Shown here one piece after another: positions 21,123-24,288 of a DNA stretch of 64,000 bases. The translations under genes and the position numbers were made by a program. The notes under the pieces were generated by a model that was not told the DNA's origin, did no database searches, and was given only the letters and a program-made list of their open reading frames with translations. Origin of the DNA: Ferrovibrio sp. Its GTDB lineage: Bacteria > Pseudomonadota > Alphaproteobacteria > Ferrovibrionales > Ferrovibrionaceae. The DNA lies in assembly GCF_025869515.1 (NCBI RefSeq), contig NZ_JAOZVR010000058.1:1-64000 (forward strand). Direction: 5' to 3'. Each line of letters starts with the position of its first letter. Position 1 is the stretch's first letter.

Positions 21123-21542
21123 ATGGGCAAGGTGATCGAACCCCGTTTTGAGGCTGCCGCCGGGCAGCTGCGTGCTGCCGGTCTGCGCACCACGCGGCAG
21201 CGTCTGATGCTGGCCGAAATCCTGTTCAGCCAGGGCCATCGTCACGTCACCGCCGAGAGCCTGTTCACCGAGGCCGCCGAGCGCGGCGCCCGCCTGTCGC
21301 TGGCCACGGTGTATAACTGCCTGCACCAGTTCACCGCCGTCGGCCTGCTGCGCATGGTGACGGTGGATGCCGGTCGCGCCTATTTCGATACCAATCTCTC
21401 GCCGCATCATCATTTCTACTATGAGCGCAGCGGCGAGTTGCGCGACATTCCGGAAGCCGAAATCGCAGTGGCCAGGCTGCCAGCGGCGCCGGAAGGCGCG
21501 AAGATCGCGCGTGTCGATGTCATCCTGCGCCTGCAGGATTGA
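21123..21542 (+). CDS. irr: Fur-family iron response regulator Irr
   Basis: Haem- and iron-responsive transcription regulator, 139 residues. The winged helix covers about residues 10-80 (RTTRQRLMLAEILFS, then LATVYNCLHQFTAVGLL). The Irr-defining stretch FDTNLSPHHHF with the following RDIP is at about residues 92-110; the three histidines are the known haem/metal site region of Irr and set it apart from Fur and Zur. The ATG at 21123 gives the normal length; an upstream start at 21075 is in frame. Irr binds TTTAGAA-N3-TTCTAAA-type boxes, and one lies 23 bases after its own stop. Confidence 0.92.
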   Translation: MGKVIEPRFEAAAGQLRAAGLRTTRQRLMLAEILFSQGHRHVTAESLFTEAAERGARLSLATVYNCLHQFTAVGLLRMVTVDAGRAYFDTNLSPHHHFYYERSGELRDIPEAEIAVARLPAAPEGAKIARVDVILRLQD

Positions 21543-21564
21543 CAGCTGCGAGCCATTCGCAGAT

Positions 21565-21580
21565 TTTAGAATGATTCTAA
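21565..21580. promoter_or_regulatory. Irr box (iron control element)
   Basis: TTAGAAT (21566-21572), one base, then ATTCTAA (21574-21580) is a perfect 7-bp inverted repeat. It fits the known iron control element of Irr (TTTAGAA-N3-TTCTAA core). It lies seven bases upstream of the -35 hexamer of the rubrerythrin operon promoter, not over the promoter, which leaves open activation as well as repression. Confidence 0.85.
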
Positions 21581-21586
21581 CATAGC

Positions 21587-21614
21587 TTGACTGATCGCCG
21601 CGCGGGTCCATAAT
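21587..21614 (+). promoter_or_regulatory. sigma-70 type promoter of the rubrerythrin operon
   Basis: TTGACT (21587-21592) and CATAAT (21609-21614) are separated by 16 bases, a near-consensus promoter that is unusual in this GC-rich DNA. The predicted start near 21621 gives a leader of about 145 bases before the rubrerythrin ATG. Confidence 0.7.
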
Positions 21615-21633
21615 CCCCGCGTTCCGAATCTCT

Positions 21634-21741
21634 GTCCCGCTGCTCCCCGCCCCACTGATTTCTGGGTGGCAGTCCGGGGGCCAGGGCGGGACATGCGCCG
21701 CCGGGCCCCATGTTTTCCGACATGGTCCGCGCCCCGGCGGC
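21634..21741 (+). ncRNA. structured 5-prime leader of the rubrerythrin operon
   Basis: Two successive stems can form in the leader. GTCCCGC (21634-21640) pairs with GCGGGAC (21686-21692). GCCGCCGGG (21697-21705) pairs perfectly with CCCGGCGGC (21733-21741), and its loop holds a further CCATG/CATGG hairpin. No known riboswitch class is recognised. The ribosome site AAGGAGGA is left single-stranded after the second stem. A regulatory role is inference from the compact pairing. Confidence 0.45.
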
Positions 21742-21766
21742 AGGCGAAAACAAGGAGGACCAGCAC

Positions 21767-22183
21767 ATGGCAGCACTCAAGGGTACCAAGACCCACGGCA
21801 ATCTGAAGGAAGCCTTCGCCGGCGAAAGCCAGGCGAACCGCCGTTATCTCTACTTCGCCCAGAAGGCCGATGTGGAAGGCTACAACGACGTCGCCGCCGT
21901 GTTCCGCTCGACCGCGGAAGGCGAGACCGGCCATGCCCATGGCCATCTCGAATTCATGGCCGAAGTCGGCGACCCGGCCACCGATCTGCCGATCGGCCCG
22001 ACCGCGTCCAACCTGAAGGCCGCGGTTGCCGGCGAGACCCACGAATATACCGACATGTATCCCGGCATGGCGAAGACCGCCCGCGAGGAAGGCTTCGACG
22101 AGATCGCCGAATGGTTCGAGACGCTGGCGAAGGCTGAAAAGAGCCATGCCGGCCGCTTCCAGAAGGCGCTCGACACGCTCTGA
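21767..22183 (+). CDS. rubrerythrin-like diiron protein
   Basis: A 138-residue ferritin-like four-helix protein, cytoplasmic, expected to reduce peroxide at a diiron site. Ligand motifs are [13 protein letters not shown] near residue 15-27, [15 protein letters not shown] near 50, [15 protein letters not shown] near 90 and [11 protein letters not shown] near 120, i.e. the two ExxH pairs plus bridging Glu. The C-terminal rubredoxin domain of classical rubrerythrin is absent, so another electron donor is needed. AAGGAGGA precedes the ATG at 21767. The Irr box and promoter upstream tie it to iron control, and the next two genes are on the same strand. Confidence 0.93.
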
Positions 22184-22287: not shown

Positions 22288-23652
22288 ATGCGCGAAGGCA
22301 GCCTGGACGCGCCGACCCGGCATCCGCTCGACTGGCAGAATCCTGATTTCTACGACCTTGAAAAGCTCGACGTCGAGATGCGACGCGTGCTCGACATCTG
22401 TCATGGCTGCCGTCGCTGCTTCAATCTGTGCGACAGTTTCCCGCGCCTGTTCGATCTGGTCGATGCCTCGCCGACCGGCGAACTCGACGAAGTGAAGTCG
22501 GCGGATTTCAAGCCGATCGTGGATGCCTGCACGCTCTGCGACCTGTGCTACATGACCAAGTGCCCCTATGTGCCGCCGCACGAATTCCAGCTCGATTTCC
22601 CGCATCTGATGCTGCGCTACCGCGCCGCCGAGCGGCATCACGGCCACAAGGATGCGATCGGCGACCAGCTGTCGCAGACCGACCGCAACGGCAAACTCGC
22701 CGGCCTGGTGGCGCCGATCGCCAACTGGGCATCCGAGCGCGGCAACAGCCTGACCCGCCCGGTGATGGAAGCGGTGATGGATGTGCACCGCGATGCCGAG
22801 CTGCCGAAATTCAACGCCAAAACCCTGGTGGCACGCGCGAAAGCCGAGCCGGCCGCGGTCAACAGCGCTGCGCCGGGCTATGGCAAGCGCAAGGCGGCGA
22901 TCTATGCCACCTGCTTCGGCAACTACAACAATCCCGATATCGGCGTCGCGGCGCAGAAGATCCTGGCGCATAACGGCGTCGCGCTGCGTGTCGATTATCC
23001 CGGCTGCTGCGGCATGCCGCGCCTGGAACAGGGCGATATCGAGGATGTGGCGAAGAAGGCGCGCGTGGTGGCGGAATTCTATGCGCCGCTGATCGACCAG
23101 GGCTACGACATCGTGGCGCTGGTGCCGTCCTGCGCGCTGATGCTGAAATTCGAATGGCCGCTGATTCTGCCCAACGATCCGCTGGTGAAAAAGCTGGCGC
23201 AGGCGACCTTCGATATCTCCGAATACATCGTCGATATCGCCAGGAAGGACGGCCTCGCGCCGGGACTGAAGCCGCTGGCTGGCGGCGTCACCCTGCATCT
23301 GGCCTGTCATGCGCGGGCGCAGAATATGGGCGCCAAGGCCACCGAGCTGATGAAGCTGATCCCCGAGATGAAGCCGGGCGAAGACCTGGCCGTGATCGAA
23401 CGCTGCGCCGGCCATGGCGGCAGCTGGGGTGTGCGGAAAGAATTCTTCGAAATCGGTATGAAGGTGGGCAGGCCGGTGGCGCGCACCGCGGTGAAGGAAG
23501 CCAAGGCGCATATCGCATCGGAATGCCCGCTCGCCGCCATCCATATCCGCCAGGGCATGGAACGCGAGGGCAAGGATAAAGAGGGCTTCACCCTGCCGGC
23601 CAGGGCCGATCATCCGGTGGAACTCTTCGCCAAGGCTTACGGTTTGATTTAA
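22288..23652 (+). CDS. iron-sulfur CCG-domain protein (GlpC/HdrD-like)
   Basis: A 454-residue cytoplasmic oxidoreductase subunit. Two ferredoxin-type [4Fe-4S] motifs are at the N-terminus: [11 protein letters not shown] near residue 38 and [13 protein letters not shown] near 82. Two cysteine-rich CCG-type segments follow: CFGNYNN with [13 protein letters not shown] near 210-255, and [11 protein letters not shown] with [10 protein letters not shown] near 340-380; the second has CAG in place of CCG. Such domains occur in GlpC, glycolate oxidase GlcF and heterodisulfide reductase. It sits between rubrerythrin and a DUF3501 gene, a recurrent trio in proteobacteria. Electron delivery to rubrerythrin is an attractive guess. 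Confidence 0.9.
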
Positions 23653-23697
23653 ACGGTATCCGGTGACGGAGGGGCTTCCGGCACACAGGAGAGTATG

Positions 23698-24288
23698 ATG
23701 AGTCTGAAGACCACGATCACCCGCGCCGACATCCTGCCGATGGACGAGTTCGTGAAGGTGCGCAAGGACAAGCGCGCCGAGATCGTCGGCATCAAGAAGC
23801 ACCGCCGCGTCGGCGTCGGGCCGTTCTGCACCTTCTATTTCGAGAATTACGCCACCATGTGGTGGCAGATCCACGAGATGCTGTTCATCGAAAAGGGCGG
23901 CGAGAATCAGATTGCCGACGAGCTGCATGCCTATGCGCCGCTGATCCCCAAGGGTACCGAACTGGTCTGCACCTTCATGATCGAGGTGGATGATGCCGTG
24001 CGCCGCCCGGCCGTGCTGGCGCAGCTGACCAATATCGACCAGATGGTGGTACTGGAATTCGGCCCGCACAAGGTGCGCTCGGTGCCGGAGGACGATGCCG
24101 AACGCAACCGCGAGGACGGCAAGACCTCGTCGGTGCATTTCCTGCGCTTCCCCTTCACGCCCGAACAGGTGGCGGCCTTCAGGGCGCCGGGCACCCGCGT
24201 GCTGCTCGCCATCGAGCATCCCAATTACGGCCATATCGCCGTGATGCCGGAGACCACGCGCGAAGCGCTGGCCCAGGACTTCTCGTAA
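23698..24288 (+). CDS. DUF3501 family protein
   Basis: A 196-residue protein of the DUF3501 family, function unknown. Characteristic stretches are [14 protein letters not shown] near the start, [27 protein letters not shown] near 38-65 (quoted in parts: [18 protein letters not shown]), and [13 protein letters not shown] near the end. AGGAG stands six bases before ATG 23698; the adjacent ATG 23695 is the alternative. It closes the rubrerythrin operon and is followed by a hairpin terminator. Genome neighbours of this family are usually rubrerythrin and the CCG protein, so all three probably act together. Confidence 0.9.

Follow-up and report, generated by a model that had tools for sequence, protein, structure and literature searches.

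A conserved Irr box before an aerobic-type rubrerythrin operon, abutted by a candidate Fur box

The closest described relatives of the locus studied here are, on the regulatory side, the Irr/ICE promoters of Rhizobiales and Rhodobacter, such as those of mbfA/blr7895, bfr and ccpA, and, on the gene side, the aerobic-type rubrerythrin module rbr-RFO-DUF3501 defined by Cardenas et al. in 2016 (PMC5114695), alongside which the ferriperoxin of Hydrogenobacter (PMC3317640) is a close known system. In R. sphaeroides, the Irr box of ccpA is located some 40 nt upstream of the start, and mbfA is expressed more highly without Irr (PMC3413700). Our locus, which lies in a 64-kb window (the whole stretch of DNA analysed), shares with the ICE promoters the palindrome TTAGAA-N3-TTCTAA, the regulator family and a ferritin-like target, and shares with the aerobic-type module its three genes, their order and the lack of a rubredoxin domain. 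The features of the locus are collected in Table 1; the part that an earlier note on this DNA had singled out, 21123-21614, begins with the irr start codon and ends with the -10.

Table 1. Features of the irr-rbr locus, with positions in the 64-kb window.
Feature	Position	Strand	Description
irr	21123..21542	+	139 aa, Fur-family iron response regulator; NCBIfam IrrA and Irr models
Fur-type box (candidate)	21547..21561	.	TGCGAGCCATTCGCA, 2 mismatches to TGMGAATNATTCKCA; 4 bases 5' of Irr box
Irr box (ICE)	21566..21580	.	TTAGAATGATTCTAA, perfect 7-1-7 palindrome; conserved before rbr in relatives
-35 hexamer	21587..21592	+	TTGACT, 6 bases 3' of Irr box
-10 hexamer	21609..21614	+	CATAAT, 16-base spacer from -35
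5' leader of rbr	21633..21742	+	two strong GC-rich hairpins predicted; single-sequence folds
rbr	21767..22183	+	aerobic-type rubrerythrin, 138 aa, no rubredoxin domain; Pfam Rubrerythrin 2.4e-30
RFO	22288..23652	+	GlpC-like Fe-S oxidoreductase; Pfam CCG, Fer4_17; synteny; PMC5114695
DUF3501 gene	23695..24288	+	DUF3501 protein, third module gene; Pfam DUF3501 8.9e-58

The gene 5' of the box is irr, as the earlier note had proposed. Its product passes both curated cut-offs, scoring 190.6 bits with NCBIfam IrrA (NF045678, cut-off 150) and 181.8 bits with Irr (NF045677, cut-off 170), and the histidines of the HxH haem motif, H95 and H97, are invariant among the 12 relatives compared. The product carries no Cys-Pro haem regulatory motif, its sole Cys, as read from the sequence, being that of TVYNC. 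The Cys-Pro motif is of the Bradyrhizobium type and is neither general to Irr proteins nor defining for them. Brucella Irr is also devoid of it and still binds haem (PMC3413700). Haem binding by this Irr is plausible, and, since the Cys-Pro motif is absent, haem-driven degradation in the Bradyrhizobium style is not to be assumed.

The palindrome TTAGAATGATTCTAA, found as TTAGAA-N3-TTCTAA near a promoter, is the sole Irr-box match in the window at three mismatches or fewer, where shuffles give an expectation of 0.13. The perfect box read by the earlier note, which lies at 21566-21580, is beyond chance and, as described below, conserved in relatives, and the distance of 23 bases between the end of irr (21542) and the start of the box (21566) was also correct; the seven bases counted from the box to the -35 are six, as TTGACT starts at 21587. 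The promoter TTGACT-16-CATAAT (21587-21614), whose -35 the earlier note called near-consensus, scores 10/12 and is the sole plus-strand promoter-like site that the promoter scan returned between 20850 and 22300. Transcription of rbr is predicted to start near 21621, with the centre of the Irr box about 48 bases upstream. Footprints of Fur-family proteins extend beyond a 15-bp box, so Irr bound here would reach the -35; the statement that the box lies upstream of, and not over, the promoter is therefore right for the hexamers and goes too far for the bound protein. No second Irr box was found 5' of irr within the window.

Across the 4.9-Mb genome, perfect 6-3-6 boxes occur three times, namely the rbr box and two that share one promoter, and five Irr boxes are found at one mismatch or fewer against one with the reversed control pattern. 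The genome-wide Irr regulon was read from matches with 0-1 mismatches only; at up to two mismatches the control (48) exceeds the matches (20). In this genome and genus, the Irr box of dps lies over the -10 region and that of katG in the spacer between -35 and -10, while a VIT-family transporter gene has two, the first 4 bases before TTGACT and the second over the predicted start. The two perfect Irr boxes at L046 169-232 (G000 C24) stand on either side of the promoter of a VIT1-family transporter gene, and a P-type ATPase-like gene comes after it. A further match at oxyR/ahpC (C38:6540) was not counted, its conserved form ATAATTAGACGCTTTCTAATTAT looking like an OxyR-type site.

By its sequence, the putative target operon is exactly the known three-gene aerobic-type rubrerythrin module, comprising a rubrerythrin without rubredoxin domain together with RFO and DUF3501 genes. 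The rbr product scores under the full-length NCBIfam rubrerythrin cut-off, and its residues E20, E53, H56, E90, E93, E124 and H127, which we take to be the diiron-ligand positions of rubrerythrins, are invariant among relatives.

We followed the arrangement through other genomes. A first set comprised 30 Irr-bearing genomes, among them that of the window itself, and in 26 of them rbr lies 3' of irr; the Irr box is present in 24/26 of these loci at three mismatches or fewer and in 22/26 at two or fewer, and TTGAC follows 4-7 bases 3' of the box (19-22 nt from the box start) in 23 of the 24 box-bearing loci. In a separate collection of named genomes, 19 of the 21 rbr loci that have an Irr gene in the vicinity carry the box at up to two mismatches, against 1.0 expected, and at up to one mismatch the box is found in 17/21 rbr loci with Irr nearby and in 3/59 without Irr. 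The joint pattern of box and TTGAC gives 16 matches in 385 genomes of the class and none with the reversed control; 11 of the matches stand before rbr, two before sufB, and one each before katG, a catalase gene and a DUF2061-like gene, katG and the DUF2061-like gene being named by reading translations. Over 46 distinct rbr promoters, which were selected for TTGAC, box and TTGAC are 3-7 bases apart, in most cases 4 or 6. Many alphaproteobacteria, SAR11 included, share the arrangement.

One congener (G001) separates the two genes that are neighbors here. Some 6 kb separate rbr from irr there, and the box is located 172 nt 5' of rbr, about 6 kb beyond irr; it has kept its place at rbr and not at irr, which argues that it serves rbr. 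Since the box tracks rbr across relatives, this congener included, the earlier assignment of the rubrerythrin operon as the target of the box is upheld, and the comparisons strongly support the rbr operon as an Irr target. The suggested local switch made of irr and its target fares less evenly, as the pairing of the two is real and its being local is not essential.

Two observations concern loci outside this group. L070 comes from a gammaproteobacterium that lives as a symbiont of the clam Ctena; here a gene for an Irr homologue (E 4.8e-25) is divergent from rbr and a 1-mismatch Irr box is present, which suggests that the Irr-rbr pair is not confined to alphaproteobacteria. Aerobic-type rbr loci that lack irr, most of them gamma- or betaproteobacterial, have another palindrome upstream of rbr, TTAGACTNAGTCTAA, which is exact in L065, L072, L098, L117 and L119 and has 1 mismatch in L054, L058, L078, L101 and L110; no recognisable regulator gene was seen upstream in the TTAGACTNAGTCTAA-bearing rbr loci inspected.

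The leader of rbr was considered as another site of control. Its stem TGTCCCGCTGC...GGGCGGGAC recurs in the nearest congeners, and a second subclade of the genus has different hairpins. A known riboswitch was rejected, no Rfam match being obtained for the leader even at E up to 1. The strong predicted hairpins are among the points in favor of a reading in which Irr binds as a minor input only, and oxygen or peroxide regulators, Fur or a structured leader mainly set rbr expression. In R. sphaeroides, Irr hardly alters how its own box genes respond to iron (PMC3413700), and in Magnetospirillum the rubrerythrin is 2.1-fold lower without oxygen (PMC9549626). We regard this reading as rather improbable for our locus, where the box is better conserved across orders than any other promoter feature and goes together with the presence of Irr.

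The second operator-like element is TGCGAGCCATTCGCA, which abuts the Irr box. The Fur-type motif TGMGAATNATTCKCA is enriched in the genome, with 37 matches against 5 for the control at up to two mismatches, and among its better copies are some that precede three ECF sigma genes or lie close to a bacterioferritin gene. A Fur-type box at a like offset from the Irr box (15-23 nt) is found, at three mismatches or fewer, in 12 of the 46 rbr promoters, where shuffles give an expectation of 0.06, a figure that overstates the surprise for those promoters which had been seen before the motif was formulated. Its recurrence in other families and its copies before ECF sigma genes are independent of how the motif was formulated. 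Specifically, the rbr promoters bearing the tandem fall into at least six groups, comprising two subclades of the genus, a second family (f5) and the loci L040, L060, L064 and L068, and in two of these, L064 and L068, the Irr box at rbr is perfect and is preceded at 19 and 23 nt, respectively, by a near-perfect Fur-type box, TGAGAATAATTCTCA and TGATAATAATTCTCA. The exact tandem, TGMGARTNRYTCKCA plus Irr box, has only one match in 385 genomes because most Fur-type copies are imperfect, and the scored test over the 46 promoters replaced that search. In its genome distribution the motif looks like what is expected of a Fur box, and we treat 21547-21561 as a candidate.

The position of TGCGAGCCATTCGCA just behind irr also raised the question of whether it is merely the terminator of irr. 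Read from the sequence, CTGCGA/TCGCAG could make a short hairpin, followed by TTTT. However, its position follows the Irr box and not the irr stop, whose distance varies between some 23 nt and some 6 kb, and the terminator scan of the region gave it no score, so that we rejected it as a mere terminator. A chance palindrome is excluded by the window shuffles, the 385-genome control, the counts in named genomes and the 46-promoter test, and it is highly improbable that the Irr box arose by chance, or that TGCGAGCCATTCGCA serves only to terminate irr beside a box without function.

From these comparisons we infer Irr binding, the direction of control, haem sensing and a role of Fur. The rbr operon is probably an Irr target with an iron-responsive promoter that is repressed by haem-free Irr at low iron. 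Under shortage of iron and haem, haem-free Irr would bind the box, cover the -35 and the alpha-CTD region and block RNA polymerase, which would save the iron that a diiron/Fe-S peroxide-defence module would otherwise consume; with ample iron, haem would inactivate Irr and the near-consensus promoter would fire. Repression is favored because the Irr boxes of the genus at dps and katG lie in the core promoter and the VIT pair brackets its promoter, these being iron-storage and haem-enzyme genes that Irr would be expected to switch off at low iron. It is also favored because SAR11 rbr promoters, which often have a second Irr box between -35 and -10, place a box in the spacer or the -10, and L067 has its sole box in the spacer, and because the TTGAC -35 is present nearly throughout and does not look activator-dependent. 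The ccpA box position and the mbfA expression seen in R. sphaeroides (PMC3413700) count on the same side.

The opposite direction, hinted at in the earlier note, deserves consideration, since Irr activates or represses depending on box position (review PMC7762939). Here Irr would activate rbr at low iron from 5' of the -35, iron-loaded Fur at the upstream box would counteract it, and the operon would be a low-iron peroxide defence. The box, centred near -48 and off both hexamers, suits such a role, and in Ca. Pelagibacter ubique iron limitation raises rbr mRNA 1.57-fold (p 0.025) and the protein SAR11_0401 2.21-fold (PMC2864753), the latter being assigned by synteny with SAR11 loci as the product of the third gene of the rbr operon. 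This rise is small and opposite to simple Irr repression, and another regulator may be behind it. We nonetheless judge activation unlikely: the -35 is near-consensus in almost all relatives, the SAR11 boxes in the spacer or -10 do not fit it, the other Irr-box genes encode iron storage proteins and haem enzymes, and a diiron/Fe-S module is costly to make at low iron. The site just 5' of the -35 is as the hint had it, while the sequence evidence leans to repression and the Pelagibacter data point weakly the other way.

Under repression by Irr, iron-loaded Fur would also act through the Fur-type box, the simplest options being competition with Irr and activation from its upstream position. The two boxes are separated by 3-5 bases in most cases, a spacing on which two dimers would crowd each other, and both competition and joint binding are possible. 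A tentative extension is that the abutting operators form a two-sensor iron switch, with Fur bound at high Fe2+ and Irr at low haem, competing 5' of the -35; if so, one promoter would read free ferrous iron and haem together.

Across alphaproteobacteria, SAR11 among them, the finding connects a peroxide-defence module that is widespread but has been little studied with the haem-sensing Irr. The fixed geometry of box and -35 offers a setting for a direct test of Irr as repressor versus activator. Among the open papers searched, none names rbr as an Irr target, a prediction that Rodionov et al. 2006 may already have made.

Compared with known systems, the site belongs to a familiar kind of regulation, Irr/ICE control of iron proteins, and is a well-supported example of it. 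In contrast to the mbfA-type ICE promoters, its target is a soluble aerobic-type rubrerythrin in a three-gene operon and not the membrane protein MbfA, and unlike the Rhizobiales and Rhodobacter promoters it has irr adjacent and a Fur-type box abutting the Irr box. The description of the aerobic-type module by Cardenas et al. (PMC5114695) does not mention Irr (0 occurrences), whereas the module described here goes together with both irr and an Irr box. What is newer in the finding is the tandem Fur/Irr operator. It resembles pfeT of B. subtilis, which is PerR-repressed and Fur-activated according to the title of a paper cited in the review (reference 32 in PMC7762939), in that one iron-defence gene would receive two Fur-family inputs; the regulators and bacteria are different, and dual control is deduced here solely from the sequence.
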